From positions 124,001-188,000 of the forward strand of contig JAPDRO010000005.1 of the NCBI GenBank assembly GCA_030247885.1: a stretch of DNA of 64,000 nucleotides, in the 5' to 3' direction. Shown piece by piece: positions 23,556 through 61,493 of this stretch; within the stretch, counting starts at the first letter, position 1; each line of letters begins with the position of its first letter. Under the pieces are notes generated by a model. That model was not told the origin of the DNA, searched no databases, and saw only the letters and a list, made by a program, of their open reading frames with translations. The translations under genes and the position numbers were made by a program. This stretch comes from Taxawa tesnikishii (nom. ined.). Taxonomy: Eukaryota > Ascomycota > Dothideomycetes > Dothideales.

Positions 23556-25598
23556 CTACACGAACCCAGGCCCACCCTCAACAACACGGTTTGGCCCCGC
23601 GGGCGCCGCAGACGGTCCACCCGTCGGGTTCGCCCTAAGCGGGGTGAGGGGCTGATAAACCTCATTTGCAGGATAAGGGACCGCATTGCCGATGATGGCG
23701 CCCCCAAAGCCAGCTTCGGAACCCGAGCGCGGCGAGGGGATTTCTCCCTCGTCGTCACGGTCATCGGAGGAGGAGTCGTCACGGTCATCGGAGGAGGAGA
23801 CGTCAAGCGGTCGCACGTCGCGCGTCAGTTCGACGTAGTCGTACTGTCAACGGGGCATGTCAATGTCAGCTCGGCTTGCGGTAGGGAGCGAGGGGCCAAC
23901 GTTGTTGAGGGAGAGAGGCCGAATGATGTTTTTTCCGCCGAAAGGGGGCAGGGGAGGGAAAGGTTGGGGCACGATTTTTCGCCATGTGTGCAACTTACGG
24001 CAAACTCTCCAATCTCCGCGTCATCGATCCCCATAGCCTCTTCTTCCTCGCTCGCTCTTAACTTGAAGATCGGCGCAAATCTTCCGATAAAGTCGAGCGT
24101 ATATAAGATGATGACACTTCCGCCGAACGAGTACGCGCCGCCGGCGGCGGAGTCGGCCAGCTGGATGCCGAGTTGGCGGTAGTTGTGGTTGAGCCAGCCG
24201 CCTGGGATGATGGTGAAGCCGTCCAGGTGGGCTATGTAGTCACTGTTCGCGCACGCAGGTTAGTTCCAAGACGTTCAGAGCAGAGCTGAAAAGCTGGGTT
24301 CGGTGGGCTGTGGGAGTGCAGGGGAGGATAGTGCGGGGAGGAGGGTTAGAAGCATGAATTGGACCTACGCAGCAAAGAAGGCCGTCAGGATATTCCCGAT
24401 CAACCCACCCACAGCGTGGACGGCGAAGATGTCAAGCGCGTCGTCACAGCGCATGAAGTACTTGAGCTTGGTCGCGTAGTTGCAGCCCACGCCCGCCACG
24501 ACGCCGAAGACGACAGCCGCCCATGCGGGCACGTATCCAGAGCCGGGGGTGATGGCCACGAGGCCTGCGACGACACCTGAGCAGAAACCGACCGTCGACC
24601 ACTTCTTCTCGAGTCTGTAGTCGACCAGACACCAGGTGATGCCGCCGACGCAGGCTGCGAGATTTGTCACCACGGCCGCCATGACCGCACGCAGATTGGC
24701 GCTTAGTGCGCTACCAGCGTTGAAGCCGAACCACCCAACCCAGAGAAAGACGGTTCCGATGACAATGTGCGTGACGTTGTGCGGGCGGTAGTTGAGTTCG
24801 TGCGTGCCGTGACCCTTGCGGCGGCCCAGCGCGAACGAGTACGCGAGCGCAGCGCAGCCGGAAGCGACATGCACAGGCGTGCCTCCGGCGAAGTCGAGTC
24901 CGCCCAGCCTATATACCCAACCCATGGGGTTCCAAGTCCAGCATGCGATGGCGTCGTAGATGACGGTAGTCCAGACGAACATGAAGATGACGCAGGGGAG
25001 CATGCGGCCGCGCTCAGCGACGGCGCCGACCGCGAGCGCAACTGTGATGGAGGCAAACATGCCTTGATAAACTGCGTACAGCAGGTCGGGGATGCGTGGA
25101 CTGCCTACGCTGGGCTGTGCAAGGACATTTATGAAAGCGAAGTTGTCGAGTGCACCGATGTACTTTCCAGCTTGGTGGGAAAAAGCTAGTGAGTAGCCCC
25201 AGAAAAACCACTGGAAGGAAACGACACCGACAGACATTATCGAGAGCCATATCAGAGAGAGGGCTGACTTTCGACGGGCAAGACCGGAGTAGAAGAAGCT
25301 AGTTGAATTAGTCAATTGTCTGAATGCACGATGCGTTACAGAGGATGGCATACCCGACGCCTGGAATCATGAGGAGCACGAGAGCAGTGGATGTGATTAT
25401 CCATGCTACATCTCCAGACTGTTCAATCGTCAACATTGTGCTTCGTCAGCCTTGGGCATTCTTTTGTTACCTCGTAGTAGATGTTTAGGTTGTCGTTCAG
25501 CGAATTCCCACCGGTCGGACCAGAGCCGTTGTAAGGCACCAGCGGGACATAGTTGGTTGTGCTGGTATCGTAGTTCACGCCTCCCCATTTTGCGCCAT
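23556..25598 (-). CDS. Ammonium transporter (AMT/MEP/Rh family)
   Basis: Five exons: 25598-25471, 25418-25354, 25298-24369, 24242-23999, 23843-23556 (introns 52, 55, 126, 155 bases), about 551 aa. The start is ATG 25598 in a GCCGCCATGG context. The N-terminus carries the fungal Mep signature YNGSGPTGGNSLNDNLNIYY. Eleven membrane helices follow, with FFYSGLARRKSALSLIW, DFAGGTPVHVASG (first pore His) and FAVHAVGGLIGNIL (second pore His). The cytoplasmic tail is acidic and includes two copies of SSSDDRDD. The protein imports ammonium at the plasma membrane. The first exon slips at the CCCC run 25583-25586: one added base gives MAQNGGGVNYDTS and makes the total 1656 bases. Regulation by an AreA-type GATA factor is plausible from the upstream motifs. 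Confidence 0.93.
23749..23798 (-). repeat. Two-copy 24-bp tandem repeat in the ammonium transporter tail
   Basis: The unit GTCGTCACGGTCATCGGAGG plus four further bases is repeated twice head-to-tail on the plus strand. On the coding strand it gives the duplicated peptide SSSDDRDD in the acidic C-terminal tail. Confidence 0.85.
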
Positions 25599-29137: not shown

Positions 29138-32100
29138 TTAACCCCAAGTGCCACCCCCACCCCTTCCCTGCCTCTTCTGCGCACTCAACCTCCACTCGTC
29201 CTCGCCCTGGAACCTATTATGCAGCGGCTGGATCCTCTCCGCGCGCTTCCTCTTACTCAACCCGCCCTCCTTGCCCGCGACCTTGAAGAAGGTCGGGGCG
29301 GCCTCGACGAGCCACTTGGGCTCGATACTGGTGACGTTGTGCATGTACTCCTTTGTGGTCTCGACGAGGCTGTGGTAGAGGACGTGCTCGGCGGGCTTAC
29401 CGAAGAGCGCGGACGAGGGGTGCATGTAGACGGGGTGCCCTCGACGAGGGTCTTGTAGCCCTCGTGGGGGTCCTTGCGGGCGGCGTTGCGGAAGAAGCCG
29501 CTGCAGAGGGCCTGGCGCACGCGGGTCGTGTCGCGGCCGCAGCTGAGCACGCGCAGCCGGTGGCGGTCGAGGATCTGGACGAGCTGCTTGCGCACGTCCT
29601 CTGCGCGGCGCATGCTGCGCGGCTGGATGAAGTTCTCGTAGCACCACGGGTCGCTCATCCGGCTCTGCTTCCACGCGTTGTACACGTTGAGGAGCGTCAG
29701 GTGGTCGCCGGCCGGGTCGTGGAACTTGGCTTTCTTTTGGTCCGCTTGTTGCTGCTTGTCCTTGGGCCGGTGGAAGACGGTCTGCGTGGCCGAGATCATG
29801 GCCACGATGGAGAGGAGCTCGTCCGAGCAGCCGAGGTCGACGGACATGATTAGCGACTTGGCGAGCGCGGGCTCCATGGGGAAGTCGGCCATGCGCCGCC
29901 CGAGGCGCGTGAGCAGGCCTTCGTCGTCGAGCGCGGAGAGTTGGTACAGCTCTTCCAGGGCCGTGAGCATGGTGTTGGTGGGCGGAGGATCCATGAAATC
30001 GAAGTGCAGCAGATCGTTGATGCCCATGGCCTTCAGCATCAGAATGGTGTTGGCCAGGTTCTGCCGCTGGATTTCGGGGATTGTCGTGGGCAGCATCTCG
30101 GACTGGTACGCTGCCTCGGTGTACAGACGGAAGCACTTTCCAGGCCCCGTTCTCCCAGCACGTCCGGATCGCTGCTTGGCCTGCGCCTGCGAGATTGGCG
30201 TGACCTGAAGCCTGTCCATGCCGAGTTTTGCATCATATGCGGTCTGTTTGACGAAGCCAGGGTCGACCACATAGTAGATTCCGTCAATGGTGATGGAAGT
30301 TTCCGCGATATTGGTAGCGATGACGACCTTTCTGCTGCCCACTGGTGCGGGCTCGAAGATTTTGCTTGCAATCTCACTAGGTAGCGCTCCGTAGATGGGC
30401 AGGATGATCAGCTCCGGTACACTTGGACCAAGAGCTTTCATCCTTTCAAAAGGATTTCGCAGCTGGTATCGATCTCTTCCTTGCCTGTCAAGAAAAGCAG
30501 GATGTCTCCAGGAGGTTCGGTGAGGTGAATCTGCATGACGGTAGTAAGGGCTGCATCGAGATAATCCGACTCCGGCTCCCTCGAGTACATGATCTCAACC
30601 GGGAAGGTCCTTCCGGGAATGGTGAGAATGGGGCATTGGTTGAAATATTCGGAGAATTTGTCAGCGTCGAGAGTGGCCGACGTGACAATCAGTTTGAGAT
30701 CCGGCCGCTTCTTCAGCGTCTTCTTGAGTAATCCAAACAAGACATCGGTGGCGATAGTACGCTCGTGTGCTTCGTCGAGCATGATGACCGAATATTTGCT
30801 GAGTGACGGATCTAGCAAGATTTCTCTCTGCATGATACCATCGGTCATGTACTTGATCTTGGTATTCGGAGACGTCTTGTCCTCGAAACGGATGGTGTAA
30901 CCGACTTCCTCACCTAGCCGGCAGCCAACCTCGTCCGATACGCGCTGTGCCACGGACATGGCTGCGACACGACGAGGCTGAGTGCATCCAATCATGCCGT
31001 TGTTTGCAAAGCCCTCTTCCGCGAGGTACTGTGTCAGCTGCGTCGTCTTTCCGGAGCCAGTGTCTCCGACCACGATCATCAGCTGGTACTGCCGAACCGC
31101 ATCGATGAACTGCTTTCGCATCTTGAATGCCGGCAAGGATTCTCTTTGCTCCTTGATCGGAAGACTTGTCCGCTTGCCGAAAGATTCGTTCTTACTCCGC
31201 GAGGCAATCTTCTTCCATTCGGGTACTTCTGTAGTCTCATTCTGACGCGCTTGGCGGAGGTCGCTCGCAAACTGTCGCTGCCCTGGTGCGACCATAGGAT
31301 CGTTCCACTGCGCCTGAAGGTCGACTTGAGAGGCTTCCTTCGCTGCCTTATCCTGAGCCTCCTGTTGTCTCAGGTCACGGCGCTCTTTGGCTAGCACGTC
31401 CCCAGCCATAGCCGCTCTGTTCATAGACCCATCAGGCGCCTTGACGACTCGGATGGGTGACAGCTCCAGCGATTGCTTTGTCTGACCTGCCAGGAACGGT
31501 GGCTCCTCTTCTCGGACCTCGATGTCAATATCTTCCTCCTCTTCAATTTCTTCACCTCTCAGAGCTGCATCATGAACTTCGTTTAATTCGGGATAATCCG
31601 ACGCCTTGATCGCGCCGGACGCAATCAGCTGCTGAATCTCCCAGCGCTCAGGCGACGTCAAGCGCTTCTTTTGCCGTTGGCGAGTATTGCCTTCAATGAC
31701 CGGGACGTTCGAGCTTAGGTTGCCGTATCTGCCGTCGGTATCTGACACTCCGTTCAGGCCCATTGCATTGGCGCCCGAAGCTGCACCGATTCTGCGACCT
31801 GGATGCAGGTCCTGCCCGGTGACCTGATCTACCTCGGCCATGGATAAACTGATGCGCTTGTCTTGAATCTTCATGACCTTGACCTTGACTTCCTGATTGC
31901 GCGACACCAAGTCGGACGGGTGATTTACTTTTCCTTCGGCCATTGCAGACACGTGCACAAGGCCGTCAACCTTGCCCCTGACATTGTGCAGATTGACAAA
32001 CACTCCGAAATCTTTCACGCCCGTAACCTTGCCGTTGTAGACTTTGTAGAGAACGGGCGACTCGTCGATCTCCGGAGTAGGGGGTCGTCTGAACCTGTCC

Positions 32101-32768
32101 TCACTTGGGCTTCTGCGCCGCCTGCGACTCTTGCGGTGGTCATCCTCGTCCCGTGAACGCCAGGTCCTAGTCCGGCCAAACTCGTCTTCAAAGACGTATT
32201 CGTCATGCTTCGGTGAGCGTGAGCGGGTCCGCGATCTGCGCCTGTGCTTCTTACTTCTTCCGGAATCAAACCCATCTTCTTCCAGTGGACTGACGCTGCG
32301 CTTGCGCGACCCGTTCGTGGCACTCTTCTTGGCCGTAGGAGCCAGTCCCTCCAGCATCGCGAACGTGTCATCCAGCGCATTCGACTTCGCGACATCCTCG
32401 CCATCCCGAGCCCCATCGTTTCCCCAAGCCAGCTCCTTGTCCGGTATAGCTAAGCCCTTGAACACCCTCGTTTTCCTATCTTGCGCCTCCTCAGCATCTT
32501 CAGCATCCGCATCGTCTTCCGCCGCTTGTGACTTGTTCCTGTATTTCGGGTGCATGGTGATGACAAGGCGATCGATACTGTCTGCCAGACTGGTCGGGAA
32601 GTCGAAGTCGGCGACCTTGGATCTGAACTCCTGGAGATTCTTGCATTTGCCATGTTGGTCTATAACGAATTCCGCGATGGTTTTGTCGGAGATGCCCATG
32701 TGATTTTGAATCTCCGAGGTCACTTTGGAGACCAGAGAGAGGAGCTCCAGCGCCTGTAGGTCCTCCAT
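29138..32768 (-). CDS. PRP22: Pre-mRNA-splicing ATP-dependent RNA helicase PRP22 (DEAH box, DHX8)
   Basis: One exon, ATG 32768 to stop 29138, about 1210 aa. The N-terminal helical region is followed by an Arg/Ser-rich linker. An S1 RNA-binding domain lies at roughly residues 240-320 ([20 protein letters not shown]), the feature that separates Prp22 from other DEAH helicases. The helicase core has [10 protein letters not shown] (motif I), TQPRRVAA (Ia), DEAHERT (II), SAT (III) and [14 protein letters not shown] (VI), then ratchet and OB-fold domains. Prp22 releases mRNA from the spliceosome after exon ligation. Two single-base losses break the frame: at the TTT run 30444-30446 (EILLK to RMKALG) and at GGGG 29432-29435 (LVEGTP to VYMHPS). 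With both restored, 3631 bases become 3633, a multiple of three. Confidence 0.95.
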
Positions 32769-33081
32769 CTTGGCTTCTGGCTTTGCGACAGCAAGGCGGT
32801 TGGATATGTGTTACGGCACAGTAGAGCAGTACAGCAAGCCCGCAAAAGATGGAGCGGAACCAGACGCCGCTCGGGATTTCCTCGGATCTTTGGCAAGGCT
32901 TCAGCTTCAGGTTCTCGTCTTCACTTCTGTTCCTTCCATACACAAGTCGTTGCACTACGAATGTCTAAATGTCAGATCAATCGACCACGGGTCAAGCTGG
33001 CTCATTGCTTTCGCTTGGAAACTGTCCATAACGACATGTCCAGTGCGTTCATGGCATTTATCTGTCTACGTCTGGCTATTG
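32769..33081. other. Spacer upstream of PRP22
   Basis: 313 bases between PRP22 and the next minus-strand gene, presumably the PRP22 promoter. No motif is recognised. Confidence 0.4.
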
Positions 33082-35751: not shown

Positions 35752-37037
35752 TTAAACATTCGTAGAACGCAAAGCAGCCGCAGCAGCAGGCACTTCCTGA
35801 TCCAATGGTAAGATGTTCGGCTCAGGCCCAACAGGCGTGATCGAAAATGGGTTGATCTGCTTATGACTCTTGGTATAGTGGCTCTTGATGTGGGTGAACT
35901 CGGTCGTGGTGCCAAAAGCATCCACATTCCAGTAAAGGTTCCGCACCCACCTGCCGATAGTTAGCGAACGCCACCACAGCGACAGTAGAAGAGAGTTTAC
36001 TTGTGCAGGTTTGGGTAACCGCTCCTGATGTCGCGGATGTTGCACTTGAAGTGCTGCACGTAGACGGGGTCGAATCGGATGATTGTAGTGTAAAGACGAA
36101 TATCGAGCTCCGTGATCTTGTCACCAAGGTAGTATGGCCCACTGCTCTTCGAAAGGTCCTCCTCGGCACGGTCCAGCGACTTGAACAGTGTCTTGACGTT
36201 CTTCTCGTACGCCTCTTGAGTACTGGAGAAAGGTCAGCTCCTACCAACGGCCGAACAAGACGAGTACTGACGTGGCAAATCCGGACTTGTAGACACCGTT
36301 GTTGATATCGTTGTAAGTCCATTCGTTAGTCTCGTCGATTTTCTTTTCTAGGTCTTTGGGCAGGAGGTTGATGCTCTTGTACTTCTCTGGGAGCTGATCG
36401 TCGAAGCATGTATATAGCATGCGGATGATCTCGCTGCTCTCGTTGTTGACGATGCGCTTCTGCTTCACATCGTAGAGCGTAGGCACGGTAAAGCGTCCAT
36501 CGTAGTCGTTGTTGTTTTCGAAGTAGATGTCGCGCAGGTGAGTGTATCCTTCATGGATCGGATCCGGATGGGTGTTACCAGGCACGTCTTCGTCTGGCTT
36601 GGCAAATCGCCACCCTGGAAACGCGTCAGTACACTGCTGACTGCGAAGCAAGAAGCGGGTTTGGATGGATACCCTTCTCAAGCATCTCCCAATGCACCGA
36701 CGTGTATGGAAGGAACTCCTCCAGACCCTTCAGCTTTCTGACAATGAGCACACGGTGGGCTGGGAAGTGAATTAGTCTCCGATCACATAAAGGACACAAT
36801 AACCGTACCCCATGGGCACGCGTATGAAACGTAAAGGTGGTATCGGCCCTTCTCAGCAGGGAACTCTGCACCGGGCTCATTCTTGATGAGGTCTCTGAAG
36901 GTGGACTGCTGGCGCTTGAACTCGCCGCTCTTGTCCTTGGGGTCTACCCAGTTCAAGATGTCTTTCTTCTGCTGGCCTTCGGTCTGCATTCATCAGTAAC
37001 GAGTCGATCGGATGGATGATGCTACACTGACCGACAT
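35752..37037 (-). CDS. ECM4: Glutathione S-transferase omega-like / glutathionyl-hydroquinone reductase (ECM4/GTO family)
   Basis: Six exons: 37037-37032, 36983-36809, 36759-36673, 36614-36272, 36222-36001, 35950-35752, with introns of 48-58 bases, total 1032 bases and 343 aa in an intact frame. The first coding exon is only six bases (Met-Ser), in a CCACCATG context. The thioredoxin-fold N-domain carries the catalytic YACPWAHR motif (Cys nucleophile, about residue 57), then the PTLYD and [11 protein letters not shown] glutathione-binding segments. The all-helical C-domain follows ([20 protein letters not shown]). These enzymes reduce glutathionyl-hydroquinones and act as thiol transferases, in cytosol or mitochondria. 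It is divergent from URA2 with about 460 bases between start codons. Confidence 0.93.
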
Positions 37038-37499: not shown

Positions 37500-40400
37500 A
37501 TGGCTGGCCAGACGGAGGAGAGGCTGATCGCCCTCGAGGTGAAGGAGGGAAGTGAGACCATTCGTCTCTGCCAGGGAAAGAGCTTCGGTGCTGAGCGAAG
37601 CGTTGCTGGCGAGCTGGTCTTCTCGACCGGTATGGTGGGATACGAAGAGTCTGTTACTGACCCTTCGTATCGCGGCCAGATCTTGGTCCTGACCTATCCT
37701 CTGATCGGCAACTACGGTGTTCCATCTAGGGAGGAGAGGGATGCTCTTCTCAAGGATCTCCCAGCCCACTTCGAAGCAGCTGAGATTCACATCGCCGGTC
37801 TGGTTGTCGCCGACTACTGCGGAGAGGACTTTTCTCACCACCTGGCTACCTCTTCCCTGGGAACATGGCTCAAGGAGCAGAACGTCCCAGCCGTGTACGG
37901 CGTCGACACTCGAGCTCTTACCAAGAGGATACGGGAGAAGGGAAGCATGCTCGGCCGTATGCGCATGCAGATCCCAGGCGAGCTGGACACCAGTGCCCTT
38001 AACAACGCCCTCTTGAAGGTTCCAACGAACAGACCCAATGGCACCCTTACTCCAGGCGCCATCACCCCTGGCACACAGACACCCGTGATGAACGGGCACG
38101 TCTCACGGGCAGTGTTCGAAGACATCCCTTTCTCTGATCCCAACACCAAGAACTTGGTCGCAGATGGTGAGATTGTTGTTCCGATCATGTATGAACTGGC
38201 GGCTAACGCTGCTCTATGTAGTCTCAATCAAGTCCCCACGCAAATATTCCCCGAACCGTCCACAGCCCTTAAGCATCCGTCTGGTAGGCCCGTACGTATC
38301 GTGTGCGTTGATGTGGGTCTCAAGTACAACCAACTGAGATGCCTGGTCAATCGGGGTGTAGAAGTCGAGGTTGTGCCATGGGACTACGACTTCCCACGCC
38401 TTGCGGGGAAAGAGTATGACGGTCTTTTCATCTCCAACGGACCAGGTGACCCAGCGATGATGAAGGATACGGTCGAACACATCAGGACTACCATGAAAGA
38501 AGCACGCATACCAGTCTTCGGTATTTGTTTGGGACACCAGCTGCTTGCCCGTGCGGCTGGAGCGGATACGGTTAAGATGAAGTTCGGAAACCGCGGCCAC
38601 AACATTCCCTGCACGAACCTTCTGTCGGGAAGGTGTTACATTACCTCGCAGAACCACGGTTTCGCCGTGGACGCCCGTACTCTTCCGCAGGACTGGACTG
38701 AGCTGTTCGTCAATGCCAACGATGGCAGCAACGAGGGTATCCGCCATGTCAGCCGCCCATACTTCAGTGTGCAGTTCCACCCTGAGAGCGCTCCTGGCCC
38801 TCATGACACTGAGAACCTGTTCAACGTCTTCATCGACACCGTCACGAAGGTCATGAACGACCCCAGCCTTATGCACCAACCGGTCAAGTTCCCCGGTGGT
38901 GATCTTGCCGAGAATATCCAGAAGGCGCCCAGAGTCACTCCTAAAAGGTTCTTGTTCTTGGTAGTGGAGGTCTGAGTATTGGACAAGCCGGGGAGTTCGA
39001 TTACTCTGGTTCGCAGGCGATCAAGGCCTTGAAAGAGGAGGGCATCTATACTATTTTGATCAACCCCAACATCGCCACCATTCAGACTTCGAAGGGTCTG
39101 GCTGACAAGGTTTACTTCCTTCCAGTCAATGCAGACTTCGTTCGCAAGGTGATCAAGGCGGAACGTCCAGACGCCATCTATTGCACCTTTGGTGGTCAGA
39201 CTGCCCTTTCGGTCGGTATTCAACTCAAGGATGAGTTTGAAGCTTTGGGTGTAAAGGTTCTCGGTACGCCTATCGAGACCATCATCACCACCGAGGACCG
39301 TGAGCTCTTCGCTCGCAGCATGGAGTCCATCGGTGAAAAGTGCGCCAAGTCTGCCTCTGCCAACAACATCGACGAAGCAATGGCTGCTGGAAAGCAGATT
39401 GGCTTCCCTGTCATTGTTCGTGCAGCCTACGCTCTTGGAGGTCTTGGAAGTGGTTTCGCCCACAACGAGGCCGAACTACGCGACCTTTGTAACAAAGCTT
39501 TCGCCGCAAGCCCTCAGGTTCTCATTGAACGCAGTATGAAGGGATGGAAGGAGATTGAGTACGAAGTCGTTCGTGACGCACGCGATAACTGCATCACTGT
39601 GTGTAATATGGAGAACTTCGACCCTCTGGGTATCCACACTGGTGACTCCATCGTCGTTGCACCATCTCAGACTTTGTCCGATGAGGACTACAACATGCTC
39701 CGTTCTACAGCGGTTAACGTCATCCGGCATTTGGGTGTCGTGGGTGAATGTAACATTCAGTATGCACTCAACCCCGATTCCAAGGAGTACTGCATCATCG
39801 AGGTCAACGCTCGTCTATCGCGTTCGTCCGCCCTGGCCTCCAAGGCTACCGGCTACCCACTCGCATTCATCGCTGCTAAGTTGGGTCTCGGCATCCCGCT
39901 GAACGAAATCAAGAACACCGTCACAAAGGTGACTTGCGCATGCTTCGAGCCTTCCCTTGACTACGTCGTTGTCAAGATTCCAAGATGGGACTTGAAGAAG
40001 TTTACTCGCGTCTCTACGCTTCTCGGCTCTTCCATGAAGAGTGTTGGTGAAGTTATGAGCATTGGCAGGACATTCGAGGAGGCCATCCAGAAAGCAATCC
40101 GCTCCGTAGACGTCAGCAACCTGGGCTTCAACCAGACGAAGGCCCTCATGTCGATCGATCAGGAGTTGCAGACACCCTCCGACCAGCGAATGTTTGCTTT
40201 GGCCAACGCCATGTATGCCGGCTACTCCGTCGACAAGATTTGGGAGATGACGAAGATCGACAAGTGGTTCCTGCGGAAGCTCAAGTCTCTGAGCGATTTC
40301 GGAAAGTTTATGGAGTCTCGAAAGGTTCAAGACGTGTCGCCATTGGAGTTCAGACGTGCTAAGGAACTCGGTTTCTCGGACCGTCAACTCGCAAACTTCT

Positions 40401-43365
40401 GGGGCACCAGCGAGCAGACCGTCCGCAGGTCCAGGTTGGAGAGTGGAATCAGGCCGGTGGTGAAGCAGATCGATACCGTGGCAGCCGAGTTCCCGGCCTT
40501 CACCAACTACCTTTACATGACCTACAATGGAACCGAGAGCGACATCGACTTCAATGACCACGGTATCATGGTTCTCGGCTCTGGCGTGTACCGCATCGGT
40601 TCTTCCGTAGAGTTCGATTGGTGCTCCGTCAGAGCTGTTCGCACCCTTCGCGACAATGGCTACAAGACCGTCATGGTTAATGTGAGTTGTATCTTTTCCT
40701 TATTTCTTTTGTGTTCGACCGGACGCACGTGGGCGTCGGACGTTGCGGCCGCCAAGTCGAGCCCCGTTCTCGAATGATGGGGCAACCATACTAACCCAGA
40801 CTTTGCTTCTCTGCATTCTTATAATACCTTTTGCTCTTGCTCACCATCCTATTGCTATTGCTGACCCTCGTAGTTCAACCCGGAAACCGTAAGCACAGAT
40901 TACGATGAAGCTGATCGTCTCTACTTCGAGAACATCACACTGGAGACGGTGCTTGATATCTACGAGCTCGAGAGGTCCAGCGGCGTTATCCTCTCCATGG
41001 GCGGTCAGACACCAAACAACATCTCGCTTCCATTGCACCGTCTCAACGTCAGGATTTTAGGCACTTCGCCTGAAATGATCGACACCGCTGAGAACCGCTA
41101 CAAGTTTTCTCGCATGCTTGATCGCATCGACGTTGACCAGCCTCAGTGGAAGGAGCTGACTGATATCGAGGAGGCGAAGAAGTTCTGTAATGCCGTCAAA
41201 TACCCAGTGCTTGTCAGGCCTTCATACGTGTTGTCCGGAGCCGCCATGAACACAGTGTACTCGGAGCACGATCTGGCAAACTACCTGAACCAGGCTGTCG
41301 AGGTGTCCAAGGAGCACCCTGTGGTCATCACCAAGTACATTGAGGGTGCGAAGGAGATTGAGATGGACGCTATCGCCCTGAACGGCAAGATGATCCAACA
41401 CTTGATCTCGGAACATGTCGAGAACGCTGGTGTGCACTCTGGAGATGCTACTCTGATCCACCCACCACAGGACCTCGACCCTGAAACCATCCGCCGTATT
41501 GAGGACGCCACGAGGAAGATCGGTGACGCTCTGAACGTCACTGGTCCCTTCAACATTCAATTCATTGCCAAAGACAACGATATCAAGGTCATTGAGTGCA
41601 ATGTCAGAGCTTCTCGTTCATTCCCCTTCGTGTCGAAGGTCATGGGTGTCGACCTGATTGAGATGGCTACCAAGGCGATGGCCGGCTTGCCCGTCAAGGA
41701 ATATCCACCTCTGAATCTTCCACCGGACTACGTTGCTGTCAAGGTGCCGCAGTTCTCATTCTCTCGCCTGGGTGGCGCCGATCCCGTCATGGGTGTTGAG
41801 ATGGCATCCACTGGTGAAGTCGCCTGCTTCGGTCGGACAAAGTACGAGGCGTACATCAAGGGCTTGATCTCCACCAACTTCCGTTTGCCGAAGAAGAACA
41901 TTCTTCTGTCCATTGGATCCTTCAAGGACAAGGCCGAACTGCTGCCTTCGATCAAGAAGCTTCACGAACTGGGTTTCAACCTCTTCGCTACCGCTGGTAC
42001 AGCTGACTACCTCGAGGAGCACGGCGTGTCCGTCAAGTTCCTCGAAGCGTTACAGGACGATTCGCAGCGCACTGAGTACTCTTTGACGCACGCGCTGGCG
42101 AACAACCTTATCGACCTCTACGTCAACTTGCCCTCCTCCAACCGTTTCCGCAGACCTGCCAACTACGTGAGCAAAGGCTACCGGACTCGGAGAATGGCTG
42201 TTGACTACCAGACACCCCTGGTGACCAACATCAAGAACGCAAAGATGTTGATCGAGGCCATCTCTCGCAACTACGATCTTGAGATCAGCAAGGTCGACTA
42301 CCAGACTTTTGCAGAGGTGCCTTCGCAGGCAATGGTCGTGCCGCAAGCCAAGGCTTCGCCGTCATTGACTGAGCTTTTGCACAACTCGCCACTCAAGAAC
42401 AGAGACATTATTTCCGTCACTCAGTTCAGCAAGGCAGAGCTCCACCTTCTTTTCACTATCGCATCGGAGATGCGTCTGGGTGTCGAGCGTGACGGTGTCC
42501 TTGACACCTTGAAGGGCAAGGTCCTCTGCTTGATGTTCTACGAGCCTTCCACTCGTACATCGGGTTCCTTCGACGCTGCAATGAAGCGTCTGGGTGGCCA
42601 AACCATGCTCATCAACGAGTCGCACTCTAGCACGAAGAAGGGTGAAAGTCTGGCCGACACCATCAGGACGCTCGATCAGTATGGTGATGCCATCGTCCTT
42701 CGTCACCCAAGCGACGACAGTGCAGACATTGCCGCCAAGGCTGCCGATCACCCTGTCATCAACGCCGGTAACGGCTCGCGCGAGCACCCAACCCAGGCCT
42801 TCCTCGATCTCTTCACTATCCGTGAGGAGTTGGGTAGTGTCAACGGCCTGACCATCACTTTTGTCGGTGACCTCCGCTACGGCAGAACCGTACACTCTCT
42901 CTGCGAGCTGCTGAGGCACTACAACGTCTCCGTACAGCTTGTCGCACCACCAGAGCTCTCCGTTCCTTCCAAGGTCCGCAGAGCACTCGAGTCCCGCGGC
43001 CAACTGTCTGCCGAATCAAAGGAGTTGACTCCGGAGATTGTCGCCAAGTCCGATGTGCTGTACTGCACCCGCGTCCAGAAGGAGCGCTTCGACGACTTGG
43101 AGCTTTACGAGGCGGTCAAGAACGCGGTCATCGTGAGCTCGGATACCCTGCGTCACGCAAAGAAGAACATGATCGTCATGCACCCTCTGCCCCGCAATGA
43201 GGAGTTGAGCAAGGAGGTCGACGACGACCCGAGGGCGGCGTACTTCCGACAAATGAGATACGGAATGGTAAGTTCTTCGCGTCTGAGCCGTGCTTGTGCA
43301 TTTGTACTGACGTTTTGCGATAGTTCGTCCGTATGGCGCTGTTGGCTTTGGTCATGGCCTCCTAA
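37500..43365 (+). CDS. URA2: Multifunctional pyrimidine-biosynthesis protein URA2 (GATase-CPSase-ATCase), lacking the dihydroorotase-like domain
   Basis: Four exons: 37500-38166, 38222-40681, 40874-43267, 43324-43365 (introns 55, 192, 56 bases), about 1854 aa. Order: glutamine amidotransferase (Cys in FGICLGHQ, His-Glu in QFHPESAPG), two carbamoyl-phosphate synthetase halves with ATP-grasp folds ([28 protein letters not shown]), the regulatory MGS domain ([10 protein letters not shown] to KVDYQT), then aspartate carbamoyltransferase ([37 protein letters not shown]). It makes carbamoyl aspartate, the first committed steps of UMP synthesis, under UTP feedback. Fungal Ura2 is usually about 2200-2270 aa because an inactive dihydroorotase-like domain sits between MGS and ATCase; here only about 40 residues lie there. 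Two missing bases, at CCCC 38249-38252 and AAAA 38943-38946, interrupt the frame. Confidence 0.95.
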
Positions 43366-44421
43366 AATTTATAAAGACTGTCTCTTAGATGGATGGACAT
43401 GGCGTTTGTTAGGGTTGTATAATAAACTCTTGAGGCATTTGTACGGAGTTTGTACAGTGATGATGTTCATGAGTCTGGTCGTAAGATATAGATGTATGGT
43501 GTATAGAGAGTCGGCCTGTTATAGCCGTTATGTTTTACCGATTTCTGTGGTTATCTATTTTTAGTACTCATCGTACTTTCTAGCATGGCTGGGTACTTTT
43601 AGGAACAACCCCTCACGGCCGTGGGAGCCAGAGGCTCTAGACGTATAATACCTTCGATTGTCTCCTGAGTTCTGGACAATCCTGTGCTTCTCTTCCTCTT
43701 TCCTTGTCGTCATACGCTATTCACCCGCGAGCTAATCTTGAGATGTTAGCTATATCACCAAGCCTCGGCGGTCAGGCTGCCTTGCGCATCAAATGTCCGT
43801 CCCGCCCGTGCGTCCAATCCCCTCCGTCGGCCAACCCGGGCTTGTTCGTCTCAGGCAGCCCTCCTGTCCTTTCATTACCTCAATTCAGCCTTGAGGCTTG
43901 TCTTAGGCGAGCTGATGACAACCTCATGGGAGCTGTTCTCAGCATTGTGGCTCGTTTGAGGGTTATATCGAAGTGTTAGTGGTAGGTCTCGTCGCAGCAA
44001 GCGAAACCCAAGCAAAGCCGAGCCCCAGGCCAGCTATCGTACCACTTCAGCCGCCGATAAAACAACACCTCCTGACCGCTGTAATGGTGTGTGCGCGTGT
44101 GCTGTCATGTTAGGGTGAGTGGATGTCTCACCAGTCCCTATCGCACCATCGCCTCATCCGTTTCGCGGTTTCTCAACATCCAGATTTGAATTTTCGTCAG
44201 GGTCCACTTAACGAAGACCTTGCGGCAGTCCGACGCCAGGTATATGTCAGTAAACTTCCGTCAGCTTGTCCAACGAACTGTCACTCTTCACCTTGTCGCA
44301 TATATATCACGGTCGATGCATCTCGCAGGACGCCTGCTCATAAATACTCCCTGAGCCAAGCCTCGCTTTGACTGCCTTCGTCAACCGTTACCTTTTCCTA
44401 CAGATCGAAACAGTCACGACA
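43366..44421. other. Intergenic region downstream of URA2
   Basis: About 1.06 kb holding the URA2 3' UTR and the upstream region of the next plus-strand gene. No gene or repeat is recognised. Confidence 0.45.
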
Positions 44422-50442: not shown

Positions 50443-53400
50443 TTATAACCTGAGCTCGTTCAAGATCGTCTGCGCCATGTTCTTGTACTGCCAAGTCCCG
50501 CCATCGACCTTCTTGAACTGAATACCATGCAAGCTGAGCAATGGAACTTTGACGACAAAGATCTCGAATCTCAGCGCCATACCCTCGCCAAGATCGCTCT
50601 GCACGTGTGTGCTCGTCTCTCCTGCCGCCCGACTGTGCGAGTGGTTGTCTTTGCGCGATGTCGATTTTGATACCGGCTCGCCAGGACCCTCGTCGTTTTC
50701 GTTGGAATCGCTGTCCTCAGAGTTCGTGTAGCTGCGGTCTGGTGCGCGCATCGTGCGGGCTGTGGATGATGGCGTGGGTGGCTGCTGACGCTGCGCCTCG
50801 CGGACATCATGGGGATCGCGGTCCGGTCCTCCGCCGATGAAGCTGAAGCTGATCTTGCGTCGATGGTTGCTCTGCTGAGGTCTTGTCTCCGCCTCCTCAG
50901 CTTTCTGCATGTCGATGGATGGTGCATGCCGGCAGCTGAAGCCACCTTTAATCTCTCGGTACTCAACACCGAGCTGGCGCAGTACACGAATGATGTCCGT
51001 TCGGATGATGGGTAGCGGCTTGCTGGATGTCGTCGATACGCTGAAGAGGCCCTTCAAGTAGACTGGCTTCATGCCGTTAGGGCTGCTTTGACCGCCGGAG
51101 TCCCGACCCTCGATCTCGTCCTGAATTTCTTGGTCTGTCTCTTCAGCCACAGCAGAAGTGCGAGACTGCTCTCGCCTTGCGCGACGTGCTTGTATGCTCT
51201 CACGCCTCGCATGTCCAAGTGACCGTGTACGTGATGCTGGCATGCTCCGCGCAGTAGATGTCTCAACGTCAGAGGCAGCGCCGTCGTGCTGTGGCCGCTC
51301 ACTTACCGAAGGTCGTAATTCCGAGCCCTGATTGATCGTTGACTGCTGGATCGAAGAGCCCTCAGAAACGCCTCGCCTGCCCGGGCGTCGCCCGAAGTTC
51401 TCTCCAGAGTTGACGCTTGCCGATCTTCCCAGCTTTGGAGCCCTCAGATTCAAGCGGCCCGAAGATGGCTCTGCCGTAACTGGTGGCGAAAGCAACTCAG
51501 GTTGCTGAGCTTGTGATGTGTCCGGTCTTGGAAGCAGAGTCATGCTGGGCTCGCGGTCTCTAGTGCGCCTAACACTAAAACTCTTCCGCGGCGTACTCAG
51601 TGCATCCGGTATGAATGAGGTAGGGGATGCGAGCGGTCGGTATCTTTGTTACGCCTCGTACTAAAACGGCGCAATAGAGCACCCGGGAGGCTTTCCTTCT
51701 TCGCTGGCGTCTCAGTAGGTGAAGGCTGAATCTTGATTTGTGGGGAGGGGGTGGCTTCGCTGGCGATTTGAGATTCAGTTTCTGCACCTCGTCTGTCACC
51801 TCGTCTTCGCCATGTGTCCTGGCACGAGGCCTTGATCTGCCACCTGTGGGTTTCTCGCCGGCCATCTCCGGTGTGGCCATGTTGGTGTACGCGGCCTCTG
51901 GTGCCTGCAGTTCCGGCAGCTTGAGGGCTTGCTCTCCGGGCGAGGTCGGCAAAGTAAGAGCACCAGGGTTGCTTTCCTTCTGCTCGCGCTCAATCTTCTC
52001 CTTCGCAAGGTAGTACACCGATATGAGTGGACTGTACGCATTGATCGGATCTGAGCCAAGCTGTACGGTTTCGGAAGAAACATTGGTGAGCGTATCGCGG
52101 CTAGTCGTGGAGTTCCTTCGCTTGTAAAACCCGCTAAAATCAAAGCCACGCTTCCGTTCAATCTCTGGCGTAGGCAGGTTTGTGCGCCGCTCGTGGTTCC
52201 GGACAGCTCGCTGGTAGTCCTCCGATTCAATTGTTCTCGTCAGCTGAGCCTCAATATCACTTGCGCTGCCAAAGTCGAATCCCTCCATCTTCTCAACGAC
52301 CTTGGGGTCGAGAGGTAGCTGAAGAGGCGTGCGGTGTGGTAAGTAGTTCTCTGGCGGACCCCCAAATCCCTTGATGAGCCATGGGTGGGTCAAAATTTCT
52401 GATAGCGATGCGCGCTGCGATGGGTCCGTAACCAGCATGCGGCCGATCAACTTCTTGCAGTCTTTTCGCCGCGTTAGTGAGAATCAACGATCCATGTACT
52501 GTTTTGCCACGTACCATCTGTGAGCCAGGGAGGATAATCCACAACACCTCTCTTGATCTTGGCATGCAGTTGTGGCATACTTTGGTCATCGAAGGGCACT
52601 TTGCCGCAGACCAATACATAGAGGACAATGCCGAAACTCCAAACGTCGACTTCGGGGCCTGTGTAGGGCTTGGCTTGAAGCAGTTCCGGAGCAGCAAAAT
52701 AAAGAGACCCGCAGAATGTTTTCAGATTGGACTTCGGGGAGAAGGTGTTGCTCAAGCCGAAGTCGATGATCTTGATATCACCGGTTTTGCTGATCAGAAT
52801 ATTTTCAATCTTGAGGTCTCGGTGGACTATGCTGTTTTTGTGGCAGTAATCCAGGGCGCTAGCAATTTGACGACCGAACTTGCGCGCTTGCTTCTCCTTG
52901 AGTCTGCCGTGTGAGATGATGTAGTCGAGCATCTGGCCTCCGTTGACGTATTCAAAGAGCATATACCAATGATACGTGGTCCGCACCACATCGCGCATGC
53001 CGCAGATGTATGGGTGATCCACCAATGTTACGATGGCTGCCTCCCGTGCGGTACGAATCTCCTTGGAGTGATCTGCTCTCTCCCGTTCCTGTGCGTTGCG
53101 GTGTTCGTCGGTTGACTGACGCGGTACGATCTTGACCGCGACCTAAGAAGCACATCAGGTACAGCTCCATCTCACTAGTACTGGGCAAATCCTACCTGCT
53201 CTCCCGTCTCCTTGTTTCGGGCCAACTTAACCTTGCCCATACTGCCAGCGCCAATCGTCTTGCCAAGCTCCCAGTGTCCTGTTATAGCATCTATCGTCGT
53301 TCTACGCCGTGGTTGCTGCTGCGTACTGCTCGAGTGGCGCGCGCTGGCTTCGCTTGGTTGCGATCCGTTCGCCATCGCTGCAGAGGGAGCCGAAGCATTG

Positions 53401-54986: not shown

Positions 54987-57164
54987 ATGTCCTTCAAGCG
55001 CTCCAGAGCCAATTTCGAATCCGATCTCCCCGCTCACCAGCAGCCGCCCTTCGTCACCTATGGCACCCCACTTCCACCTCTCGATTCACAGACCCGCGAC
55101 GATGGCAGCTATGTCCCGCTTTGGAAGCAAGAGGTTCGGGATGAGCGGGGAGGAAGCGCTTGCATGGCGCATTCACCGGCGGCTTCAGCGCAGGCTACTT
55201 CAACACCGTAGGATCGAAAGAAGGGTGGACACCGTCGACATTCGTATCCTCACGCACGAACCGCCACAAAGATGACCAGAAGACTACCCAGCAGCGTGCT
55301 AAAGCATTCATGGACGAGGAGGATCTTGCCGATGCGGCTGAAGCGCAGAAGCTGGAAACCCAGGGATCCTTTGCAGGGCTTGGCTCCACGCAGGAAGGTG
55401 GCATGCCTAGAGGGTTCCTAACAGACTTGTTCAAGACAAGCGGAGAGACTATGGGCGTCAAACTGCTACAAAGAATGGACTGGAGGCAGGGGCAAGGCAT
55501 TGGAGCAAAGGTACGGCGGAGAGCAAGGCTCGAAGGATCTGGCAAGGCTGTGCCTGCGGACCAAGAATCGCACCTTTTCGCCCCGGATGATTCCCAGATG
55601 GTATCTCTGGTCAAGAAGACGGATCGCTTTGGACTCGGTTACTCTGGGGAAGAGCGGCTAGAGTCTGCGGTTGTTCGAGGTAGCAGAGCCGTTCAAGACG
55701 AAGACGAGGATGAAGGCAGTAGCAACATCTTCTCCCTCAGCCGTGCAAGTTCCACCAAGCCAAAGGCGAAAGCAAAGCGCACAGGCTTTGGTGTGGGCAT
55801 ACTGAACGACACCGGTTCCGACGAAGAAGATCCTTACGAGATGGGCCCAAAGATTGCCTACAACCGAATAATAGGGGTGACAAGAGAAAGAAAAAGGTGG
55901 AATCATCGCCAACACTACTACCACTAATAATCCTCAGTTCAAGAAGTCCGCACCAACATTCTCCACTACAAACAGAGCCTTGCAGCGGAGTTCGGCCATA
56001 TCAGGTTTTCGCAAGTGCTATGATGGCCGGTTACCCCTTGATGGATTCATCCTTTCTACAACCTTGCTCGCAGATCAGGAATCGAAGTATCCGCCACCGA
56101 AGATCCCTGCGGGCTGGAGATCGTCCAAGCAAGGCTTGTCTGCCTCTGCCCCGGGCACCTCTTCTCCAAGCAATTTCCAATCTACTGCCGATGCTGCAAA
56201 GGCCTCTACGCTAGACCCTGCTGCACGCGCTGCCTTGTTGGGAGAAGAGCAGCTGAAAGGCAAATCCGTGTTCGATTATCTGACATCAGCGGCACGCGAT
56301 AGGCTTGCGGCGGCCACAGGGAATCAAAACTTACCTGCCGCGCGAGGCGAAGCGGCGCCTGCCGGATACCAGCAAACAGAACAAGAAAAGGCGCGCTCCT
56401 TGTGGGATCTCGTCCCACGGCTCGACAAAGACACCGCCGCGGCAGCACTAAGTCGCGGCACCAGCGGCTGGATGCCCTACGCCGAGGACGAGAACAAAAG
56501 GGCCCGATACAGAGCTTTCCTGGAAATTATGTCAGGCCTGCGCAACGGGCTACCGGAGCGCGCAAAGGGCATGGCGAACGCGGAGTGGGAGACCGAGATG
56601 CGAGAGTTTGTCCAGGCGGCATTGGTGTTCAAGCCCGTAACTGGGCTCATGGCGTCGCGGTTCACGTCCTCGTCGTCTGCACCCAAGTTGGCGAACGATG
56701 CGCCAGATAAACCCGCGGTTGAGGAGGCGAGGAAGGACCCTGCTGAGGAAGCGGCGAGGCTGGGTATGTTCGGTCCGATGACGAGATCGAGAGTGCAGTT
56801 TTATCCGACCAGGCTTACGTGTAAGCGGTTTGGTGTCAAACCGCCTGCGCATGTGCTTGTGGATCCGGGACCGGGCGCTGGGGACGAGGGATCGGCGGCT
56901 AAGGACAGTAGATTGGGAATCGTTAACCAGGCGAAGCTGGATCAGATGATGAGAGAGATGAGCTGGAACAGGCCGACTGCTGCAGCCGCTGCTGGTGTGC
57001 AAGGGGATGGAGGTGTGGGAATTGAGGCTGAGATAGCGTTGGCGGGAACAGGTAGGACACAGCCGGCTGAAGTGGATGTGGAGAGGAATGATGCACTTGA
57101 GGGACAGAGGGCTGGTGAAGCGGTGTTTAAAGCCATCTTTGGGAGTGATGATGAGGATGAGTAG
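54987..57164 (+). CDS. G-patch domain protein, GPATCH1/TOUGH-like
   Basis: A single exon, ATG 54987 to TAG 57164, about 726 aa. The N-terminal DUF1604 block is characteristic of GPATCH1 (ANFESDLPAHQQPPFVTYGT, then VPLWKQEVRDERGRKRLHGA, FTGGFSAGYFNTVGSKEGW). A G-patch follows (GVKLLQRMDWRQGQGIGAK) with the QGxGxG core. Then comes KIAYNRIIGGDK and FRKCYDGRLPLDGFILS, and a C-terminal region with FGPMTRSRVQFYPTRLTCKRF. Human GPATCH1 binds spliceosomal helicase DHX35 in late spliceosomes, so a splicing role is likely; location is nuclear. Three missing bases interrupt the frame: GGGG 55147-55150, GGGG 55874-55877, and about 55896-55898. The total then becomes 2181 bases. It is unusual in needing no intron. 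Confidence 0.9.
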
Positions 57165-57551: not shown

Positions 57552-60500
57552 ATGCACTCGCTTAATCCTTTCTTACGGGCCTTCTTCCGAAGCACCGTCC
57601 CGTCCCAGTGCCTTCCCATCACCAACCACGTATGCGCATCCGTAGACTGCGCATGGCTGATCTACGACGGTCGCTGACGCGCTAGTAGATACTCCTCATT
57701 CCCACTACAGACGTACTCCTCCACTCAAAAGATCGCGATACCAACACGCTCTACGCCGACCTTGCCGGATCCGAGGAATTTCTAGCCAGCCATGTCATTC
57801 GCGTATCGAGCAACTCGGCCAGTCAAGATGGTGGAAATGTCAGGGAATCAAAAGGCAAGGCAAAACAGTATACTACAGTCAATGGCAGGACTGTAGTCGT
57901 CAAGGACGCTTTTGTCTACAGCAACAAGGGCTTCAAGACGTTGAACCAGGCGCAATTGTTGCAGGATGCGATCTACTACCCGGATACTCTTGACGGACAG
58001 CAGTGGCTCGTCTATTACATCTCCAAGCCGCTCATTGGATCTCTCGAGGCCATCACGATAATCCCAGCTTCGATCACCCACGTTCGAGAACAGCGAGAGG
58101 CGGCAAGACAACGGCAGCTGAATGGTGCTTCAGACTCGGGCAGTAGCCTGGCATCTGACTTGAAGAAAAGGGAAATAAAGAACTTCAACGAGCTACTTTC
58201 GCACTTTCCCATGATTGCGAGGCAGATGCAGCCCGGGCTCGAGAAGGTGTTTAAAGAGTTTGTCAAGCAGTTTCAGAAGCCCTTGCCGCAGAAGCCGTCC
58301 AGGTCTTCCTCCGTCAGCTCTCAGAAATCTTCAGAATCCCTGGTAGACTCTCTTGCTTCGCTCAGATCGTCCTTGTCGGGAAGCGACACCATTCATGGAT
58401 CCGCTGTCGCACTGGATCCTGAGGAAGATGACATGCGATTCGCGCTAGAAAGTGCTACAACTGCTGCAATCGACCTATTCCAGAGCGTGGATAAACAGCA
58501 ACTGTCACTGCTTGGTGCGACGACAGATCTGTCCGGTCCCATGGTCGAGCGTTTGATTGAGCGCTACGTGGCAGAGCAACTTCATGACACCGTTCTTTTC
58601 CCTCGGATATGTGGCGTGCGACGGCCCGAGGATATGAATTTGGAATCGAACATCCGGAGAATGACGGACGTTGATATTGCGCAGGTCGGTATACCTATTG
58701 AAGGCGGCATGCGAGGCAAGCAGGAGCTGGCTGTTCGGCTTGACAGAGGAATCGCAGTCTTCAAGAGAATGGGTGTTGCAAGTAGTCCCCAGGAGATGGT
58801 CGAAATTCTACTGGCCACACAGAAAGCTGTGACCGCTGCGGAGACTTCGGTTCCAAACCAGGGCACTACCGGCAAAGAAAACTCTACATCAGAGAAGGGC
58901 AGTACGGCCATGACCATAAATGCCGACATCCTTGTATCGATGCTCCTCATTGTGGTCATTAGGAGCACTGTACGGCATCTGCACGCTCGTCTCTCGTACA
59001 TGCGGCATTTCATCTTCATTGACGACGTCGAGACTGGCGAGACCGGCTATGCGTTAAGCACTTTCGAGGCTGTCTTGGTATATCTTACGAATGAGCCGGG
59101 AGCGCTGCGAAGGGCAAGTCGCAGGAACAACAAGCTTTGGCAAGCGGTCAAGAACGGCGATGTGGCAGAGCTTCAGTCAGTACTGGAGCCGGGAAAATCT
59201 TGGTTGGCCACGTCAGAAGAGCTGAAAGAGGAGTCCGAACACTCTGAACATGCAACAGACTCAGCTGAGGGCACCGCAGACGATAGTATTCACGACGCAG
59301 ATTCGGCAGGCAATGTCTCGAAAGGTAGCCTCGCACAGCATGTTGGAATTCAACCCACAGGACTACGTACAGGAGACTTTGCCGCCGTGAGCGGCTCTCT
59401 CTCCATGTGTTTCCCTTCCAACGACCGCCAACGCCTCCACCGGAAACAGAGCAGCCACGGATCAAAAGGGTATCGATGGCGACGATGCGGAGTACCTCTG
59501 CCTCCTCCGCTTTCTCGTCGAGGTCACACTCTAGATCAAAAAGCTTCGATTCGACTACAAGTACCGCCTCGGAGCACGAGAACGACATCTCAACTGGGAA
59601 ACTTGCTCAAACGCAGGGCCACCAGGGAGAATCTCTCCTGATGATGGCAGTTGAAAGCGGCCAGCTTCATTCTCTGGATTACTTGCTCAGTCTTGATGAA
59701 CACTTTCCCATCGAGACGGTCTTGGAAGACACCAACAGCGAAAACGTCACCCTTCTCAGCGCCGCGTTGCAGGGCGATGATAAGAACCTAACGACTCATT
59801 TGCTCAACCATGTCATTGATAAGGCTCCGACAGAAGACATCTTACGGAAATATTTCAGCAAGCAAGACAACAAGGGAGATGTGTCGCCCACTACCTGTTC
59901 AACCATCCGCATCTCATGGAAACGGTCGGTGAGTTGCTACCATGGAAATTGAAAGACAGGAATGGGCAGACTCCGTTATTCGCTCTGTTCCGATCCTACG
60001 ACCATCAAGAATACCATTGGATGATTGAAAAGGCTCTTTCTCTGGCTTCGAAAACACAAGGAGACGGAGAGCCACTCCATCTGGATGACCACATTGACGG
60101 CAAGGGAAACACTTTGTTGCATATTGTCAATGATTCCCCATTAGCGATGCGGCTTCTTCACAAATGCGACTCGGACGTCAACGCCGCCAATGACAAGCGC
60201 TTCACGCCTATCATGGTAGCCAGCAAATACGGCCGCATCGACCTCGTGCGTGCTATATTTGGGGATCCTCGAGTTGAAACGCAGGCACGAGATCATCGAG
60301 GGCTCACTGCAGTGGAGCTTGCAAAAGACGACGAAGTCCGTAACCGCATAGACGACATGGTGTTACTCTCAACACCGCCGGGGCCCGACGGCCGCATCAC
60401 GACAGTCGTGCGATCCTTCTTCGTCGAAGATGCAAGCGTCCGTCTAGTATTGAAATCAGGAGGCCCGAACGCAAATGGCAGCATCACCGTCACCACATGT

Positions 60501-61493
60501 CGACGCTCCCTTGCAGACTTCGAGAACTTGGCCAAATGGCTTAACATCGAGCAGCCGGCGTCCTGGTTGCCGACGCAATTCAATCTGCCGTCTCCGTTCG
60601 TGATACCCTCGAAGCCGTCACGAGCACTGCTTCGTGACATCCAAATCCGCATGGACAATTTCCTCCGCAACCTCCTGACCCACACGACCTTCTCGACGCA
60701 CGAAATGGTGTGGGAATTCTTCCTCGTGCCCGAAATCGACGGCGCCCTCCTCGCAGAGCGCAGCAAGCGCAAAGCCGAGCTGCGCGTCGAGAACGTCCGG
60801 GACGAGTACCCACCCGTCTCGATTCCAGAAACGCGCGACATCGAGACGTTTGTCGCCCACGCCAAGGAGCAAGTGCGCGCGCTGTCCCAGTCAACAAAAC
60901 AGCTGGTGCGTCGCACAAACGGCGCCCGACAGCTGACAGGCGACCTGTGCGACGCGGCGTCCTTCGCGTCGCGCGCGCTCGCCACGCTGCCCTTCCTCCC
61001 CGCCGCCCACATCGCCGCCTTCGACCGCTACACCAGGACGCTCGCGCCCACGGACTCCCACCCGCTCAACGCGCTCTACTACGCCCTGCACAGCATCGTG
61101 AGCACGAGCGCCGCGCTGCAGACCGCGCTGACGCGGCCCGCGCATCTGGTCGGCAGTATGAGCGCCGCCCAGCGCTCCATCGAGAGACAGTACAGCACGC
61201 TGAGCCGCCAGAATCGGTGGACCCCGAATATCGGCCTCTTCGACGACGCTAGGCGCGCCATGCAGCAGGAGGCGTTGGACAAGGCGGACAAGGCTAGGAC
61301 CGAACTCGAGACTCTGGGCAGTGAGTTGAGGTACACGCAACAGACGGTCGCGGCTGAGTTGGCCGGTTGGCAGGAGGAACATGTCAGGCAGGGGCGCCTT
61401 ATGTTGAAGACGTTGGCTAAGGGGATGGTGGTCAAGGAGAAGGCGAGGTTGGAGGGTATGAAGAGGGCGTTGAGGGAGTTGAAGAAGTCGTGA
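57552..61493 (+). CDS. VPS9-ankyrin-PX-BAR protein, VRL1-like (VINE complex type)
   Basis: Two exons, 57552-57629 and 57689-61493 (intron 59 bases), about 1294 aa. The start MHSLNPFLRAFFRSTVPSQC reads through the splice into ILLIPTTDVLL. A helical N-terminal region is followed by a VPS9 domain (about nt 58430-59150, ending YALSTFEAVLVYLTNEPG), the Rab5-type GEF fold. A Ser-rich linker precedes ankyrin repeats (about 59640-60360; GNTLLHIVNDSP, FTPIMVASKYGRIDLVRAIF). A PX-like domain (about 60400-60760) and a long C-terminal coiled-coil of BAR type (about 60800-61490) end the protein. This is the AnkRD-PX-BAR order of yeast Vrl1, the GEF-containing sorting-nexin subunit of the endosomal VINE coat. 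Two bases appear missing, near 59395-59408 and 59880-59888; with them exon 2 is 3807 bases. Confidence 0.8.

Follow-up and report, generated by a model that had tools for sequence, protein, structure and literature searches.

A fungal URA2-type gene that has probably lost the inactive dihydroorotase-like domain between MGS and ATCase

The URA2-type gene described here is a whole fungal Ura2 gene from which the inactive dihydroorotase (DHO)-like domain is missing. Its product, a single chain of about 1,854 residues as counted from exon lengths, contains glutaminase, CPSase, MGS and ATCase domains in this order, and the DHO-like domain is absent between MGS and ATCase, where there are only 33 residues, all within one uninterrupted exon. 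Clean in-frame loss of the pseudo-dihydroorotase, leaving a tethered CPSase-ATCase together with a stand-alone dihydroorotase, is the best explanation of these observations, with a probability of roughly 0.78. The inactive domain is described as a standing part of fungal Ura2 in the excerpts of PMC9863657 drawn on here, and those of PMC4581275 state that it is 'usually' present, in agreement with the expectation for fungi expressed in the original prediction.

The window, that is, the whole stretch of 64,000 nucleotides that was analysed, comprises bases 124001-188000 of contig C30 in a genome assembly of 29,367,862 bases and 34 contigs. The gene consists of four exons (Table 1). The N-terminus of the encoded protein carries the glutaminase and CPSase small-chain domains (PF00988 and PF00117 in Pfam, TIGR01368 in NCBIfam), and both CPSase halves and the MGS domain are identified in the same chain with profiles from these two collections. 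The call of intron 1 relies on the conserved frame downstream of it, presumably as in relatives. Exon 3 is free of stop codons over its 798 codons, and the open frame to which it belongs (40874-43561/43564, 896 codons) continues into intron 3. The original prediction of a continuous, intronless frame of this size is thus confirmed, and its estimate of about 1854 aa for the complete protein is matched by the independent count of coding bases. Because the upstream exons encode the glutaminase and the first CPSase half and the last exon ends the ATCase, the locus represents a complete Ura2 gene that lacks the DHO-like domain.

Table 1. Features of the URA2-type gene, in coordinates of the window
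Feature	Position	Strand	Basis or remark
URA2-type gene, whole	37500..43365	+	four exons; start codon and splice sites by eye
Exon 1, CPSase small-chain domain	37500..38166	+	Pfam/NCBIfam profiles and sequence
Intron 1, 55 nt, GT-AG	38167..38221	+	by eye
Exon 2, glutaminase and first CPSase half	38222..40681	+	profiles; frame apparently broken near 38250 and near 38943
Intron 2, 192 nt, GT-AG	40682..40873	+	sequence
Exon 3, 798 codons: second CPSase half, MGS, short linker, ATCase	40874..43267	+	profiles and sequence
MGS-like regulatory domain, PF02142, frame residues 355-451	41936..42226	+	coordinates computed from the Pfam match
MGS-ATCase junction, 33 residues; LTELLH (42365) within it already belongs to the N-terminal part of the ATCase	42308..42406	+	phmmer and sequence
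ATCase domain (OTCace_N and OTCace) up to intron 3	42401..43267	+	profiles, phmmer, structure search
Intron 3, 56 nt, GT-AG	43268..43323	+	sequence
Exon 4, last 13 ATCase residues and stop	43324..43365	+	sequence

The domain content of the junction exon is clear from profile searches. Pfam matches on the frame 40874-43561 are CPSase_L_D1 (residues 2-70), CPSase_L_D2 (75-275), MGS (355-451), OTCace_N (510-651) and OTCace (658-800), and there is no amidohydrolase family among the 10 Pfam families found in this frame at E<=0.01. Among the best 25 of 56 NCBIfam families on exon 3, CPSaseII_lrg ends at residue 463 and asp_carb_tr starts at residue 510. The KVDYQT motif (42290-42307) is followed by LTELLH 19 residues on and by IISVTQF (from 42407) 33 residues on. 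LTELLH is assigned to the ATCase side because phmmer aligns the stretch containing it with LLHSLVGQHILSV of human CAD ATCase. An end of MGS at KVDYQT and a start of ATCase some 40 residues later had been predicted originally, and these positions prove correct to within a few residues. The spacing of 33 residues is read directly from the frame and is independent of the genome-wide negative results with DHO profiles that are described below.

The extent of the loss can be estimated by comparison with the Chaetomium ATCase (ctATC). The aligned part of ctATC starts at residue 9 of a 315-residue chain; given that the construct spans residues 1939-2253 in the excerpts of PMC9863657, this is residue 1947, and the equivalent point in the URA2 protein is approximately residue 1,546 (again counted from exon lengths). 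From the ATCase start to the C-terminus, the two proteins are nearly equal in length, with 306 residues in ctATC and about 308 here. Judging from this alignment, about 400 residues would be missing upstream of the ATCase compared with Chaetomium, a number that would be accounted for by the DHO-like domain and the greater part of the linker that follows it; differences in the length of the N-terminal part could supply some of this shortfall.

The ATCase domain shows 193 identical residues among 295 aligned with ctATC. The invariant columns in an alignment of nine ATCases include S209-T212, H288-Q291, G315-L317, H420, P421, P423 and R424, which we take to be active-site stretches of ATCase. A Foldseek search with the ATCase model returns ctATC as the top match (8bpl, TMt 0.88, rmsd 2.4, 65% identity). 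The model has a mean pLDDT of 67.0 and a pTM of 0.64. Of the 30 ten-residue blocks from residue 151 onwards, 24 average at least 75 and the other six 55-74; values under 50 are found for residues 1-145, which comprise MGS (a part without aligned relatives) and most of the junction. Because of this low confidence for MGS and the linker, the model is used for the ATCase part only.

The foremost alternative is an assembly artefact, whereby about 1-1.3 kb of coding sequence between MGS and ATCase was dropped by the assembler or polisher. This appears unlikely, even if the draft nature of the sequence lends it some weight. The remark on base errors in the original prediction is borne out by exon 2, where the frame is apparently broken twice by single-base errors, each time in a short homopolymer run (by eye); these breaks are most simply explained as draft base-calling errors, and a gene that is actually broken is a less likely explanation. 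In addition, the domains of a DEAH-type helicase gene in the same window (29257-32810, minus strand) are split, with S1 and DEAD versus Helicase_C and HA2, over two overlapping same-strand frames (29257-30594 and 30438-32810), which is likely to be another frame break. However, all these breaks look like single-base events and none is of kilobase scale, and exon 3, which holds the junction, is free of apparent breaks. The MGS-ATCase join is in frame and both its ends lie within inter-domain linkers. Composition is even, with GC3 of 0.71 before, 0.65 within and 0.73 after the 40-codon junction stretch. There are no exact direct repeats of at least 12 bases in 42000-42700; the maximum is 11 bases, reached by two repeats, neither of which flanks the junction. 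Furthermore, no block of kilobase size is missing from three long control genes: the profile matches cover 5-1044 of 1052 positions in the CPSase on C33, 4-1110 of 1143 in the pyruvate carboxylase on C32 and 70-1200 of 1201 in the urea carboxylase on C20, the latter two each with a stop inside one piece. The sequence is still best read as the clean deletion with a short linker that was originally proposed, and an artefact is disfavoured by the in-frame join, the location of its ends in linkers, the presence of a single ATCase in the genome and the three gap-free controls; the choice between real loss and artefact stays a judgement, according to which the loss of the DHO-like domain is probably genuine.

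Another possibility is a decaying gene copy, in which the frame breaks and the domain loss would both be real, with pyrimidines obtained in some other way. The two apparent breaks in exon 2 are compatible with such decay, but neither the catalytic stretches nor the 798-codon exon show any damage, and the pyrimidine pathway genes found across the genome make this scenario highly improbable. The search of all 34 contigs with the PF00185 profile identifies two transcarbamylases, the URA2 ATCase on C30 and one on C4 that is taken for a putative ornithine transcarbamylase, so that URA2 holds the only ATCase of the genome. Two full CPSases are detected with TIGR01369, URA2 and the one on C33, which is taken for a putative arginine enzyme, along with weak matches to other ATP-grasp genes. 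A URA4-type dihydroorotase gene is retained on C34, where the match to TIGR00856 (341 positions) is divided into a piece of positions 3-197, interrupted by a stop, and one of positions 197-277; because the exons are scored apart, both pieces are below the curated cut-off. The respective frames contain HVHLR, KSYPAG, HGES, LEHC and GTDSAPH, which are presumably the marks of an active dihydroorotase. On these sequence grounds, dihydroorotase activity can be assigned to this separate gene, as in the Ura2/PyrABCN group.

Several other genes were considered as possible displaced pieces of Ura2 and rejected. Comparison with solved structures identifies the amidohydrolase on C14 as a dihydropyrimidinase and the one on C33 as an allantoinase; the TIGR00857 match on C34 is the URA4-type gene itself, the one on C12 is dihydropyrimidinase-like (by eye), and the weak places on C13 and C7 do not have the look of a moved Ura2 piece (by eye only). 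Genome-wide, TIGR00857 matches 10 places at E<=10, none of them on C30, and PF12890 yields no match; both searches were run without a fungal DHO-like positive control, and the PF12890 result says little because no more than 3 of 14 control genomes give a match to this profile. The Chaetomium DHO-like structure is not seen among the best 60 of 89 and the best 60 of 152 solved-structure matches obtained with amidohydrolases of this genome as queries.

Finally, the least probable reading, for which no support was found, is that the lineage never had a DHO-like domain and arose through an independent CPSase-ATCase fusion: the domain occupies the same place in animal CAD and in the fungal proteins described in the excerpted literature, and the structure search places the ATCase nearer to Chaetomium (64-65% identity) than to human CAD (at most 54%), which makes descent from a fungal ancestor that carried the domain likely.

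Four features of fungal CAD-like proteins are found here, namely, the N-terminal glutaminase/small chain, the CPSase halves with MGS, the C-terminal ATCase and the separate dihydroorotase, and one, the DHO-like domain, is not; with the other four in place, this Ura2 is classified as a variant of the fungal CAD-like protein. It shares with Ura2/PyrABCN of Saccharomyces, Schizosaccharomyces and Chaetomium the single-chain glutaminase-CPSase-MGS-ATCase order, the separate dihydroorotase gene, the second CPSase encoded elsewhere and an ATCase that is 65% identical to that of Chaetomium, but has 33 residues in place of the domain and linker, and the part of its chain ahead of the ATCase is shorter by about 400 residues. 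In animal CAD, too, CPSase precedes ATCase on a single polypeptide, but an active dihydroorotase domain is present between them, whereas here this activity seems, from sequence, to reside in a separate gene. The bacterial and archaeal CarA, CarB and PyrB are the same enzymes, with an ATCase chain that lacks a DHO partner, but are separate proteins, in contrast to the fused chain encoded here by a gene with eukaryotic introns. The ATCase of Pseudomonas aeruginosa resembles fungal Ura2 in the very part in question, an inactive DHO homologue next to ATCase; as presented in the excerpts of PMC7053772, however, this partner is a separate chain that is needed for activity, and it has no counterpart here.

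A natural fungal Ura2 without the DHO-like domain appears to be undescribed in the titles and abstracts surveyed from the open-licence literature, and might sit unremarked in fungal protein databases. Searches for fungal Ura2 relatives in viral contigs (2 loci, none and 3 loci) and in genome contigs (9 loci) produced bacterial, archaeal or IMG/VR sequences only. The tblastn search of plasmids matched 281 records; among the matches listed (10 of 281), none is fungal and none spans 80% of the query at a single place. Frames were inspected in 4 of the 14 relative loci: in L018, the ATCase frame is cut off by the end of the contig, and in L027, L028 and L029, the CPSase frames of 1088, 1056 and 1071 aa, respectively, have the size of a separate large chain. 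Two IMG/VR contigs (L015:5001-5837 and L016:5001-5813) encode ATCases that are 43% and 47% identical to that of URA2, and could represent either viruses or misfiled cellular contigs.

Other genes in the window encode an ammonium transporter (24365-25366, minus strand), a VPS9-domain protein (57689-59641, plus strand) and an ankyrin-repeat protein (59823-61493, plus strand), and the frame 36241-36729 (minus strand) resembles a xi/omega-type glutathione transferase (by eye). Overlapping same-strand frames at 50443-51648/51575-52483 (minus) and 55145-55927/55881-57164 (plus) could reflect a frame break or an intron; these regions (50443-52483 and 55145-57164) adjoin the end of a KA1-domain kinase and a DUF1604 protein. 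The 5.8S rRNA family has no match in the whole assembly, so the rDNA is either absent or missed; the single place that fits the 5.8S primer pattern with two mismatches was rejected as rRNA. Going by the style of its genes, the genome may be that of an ascomycete.

With respect to the origin of the short protein, an in-frame deletion in the course of evolution has probably removed the dead DHO-like domain together with the greater part of the linker that follows. Deletions within yeast URA2 arise at microhomologies of 1-11 bp according to the excerpts of PMC2674068, and by analogy, a deletion of the microhomology type would be a plausible route of loss. The shortened Ura2 would still make carbamoyl phosphate, hand it over to a normal ATCase trimer and be controlled through MGS, with the product passing to the free dihydroorotase.

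In the excerpts of PMC9863657, the DHO-like domain of Chaetomium is reported to have no active site yet to form a homodimer very like that of human DHO, and in the model of CAD, DHO dimers link the ATCase trimers, with a possible contribution of CPSase dimerisation; both the structure of the DHO-like domain and the effects of CAD mutations speak in favour of a scaffolding function within the hexamer. In Chaetomium the pseudo-domain forms dimers, and in the model it bridges two ATCase trimers; on this basis, the shortened Ura2 is predicted to exist as trimers, or as hexamers held by CPSase-CPSase contacts only. The same excerpts report that the activity of isolated ctATC is comparable to that of a construct including the DHO-like domain, so by analogy, ATCase catalysis should survive the loss, and because MGS is kept, control by UTP could survive as well. 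The requirement for the inactive DHO homologue in P. aeruginosa ATCase, as stated in the excerpts of PMC7053772, indicates that dispensability of the domain is no foregone conclusion. The odds seem about even that a whole fungal lineage possesses such a minimal glutaminase-CPSase-ATCase chain, with the pseudo-dihydroorotase dispensable, MGS tethered directly to ATCase and a trimer or CPSase-dimerised particle.

If confirmed in reads and in relatives, this gene would provide a natural test of the need for the DHO-like domain in assembly, and a natural Ura2 that lacks it would demonstrate that loss of the scaffold is compatible with retained function. Should this be the case, assembly, UTP control and carbamoyl-phosphate channelling, on which the domain loss may itself have a bearing, would become open to study in a natural bridge-free protein that separates hexamer formation from the other two. 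Such a protein would also offer a smaller particle for structural work, in a field that, as noted in the excerpts of PMC9863657, has been hampered by disintegrating particles.
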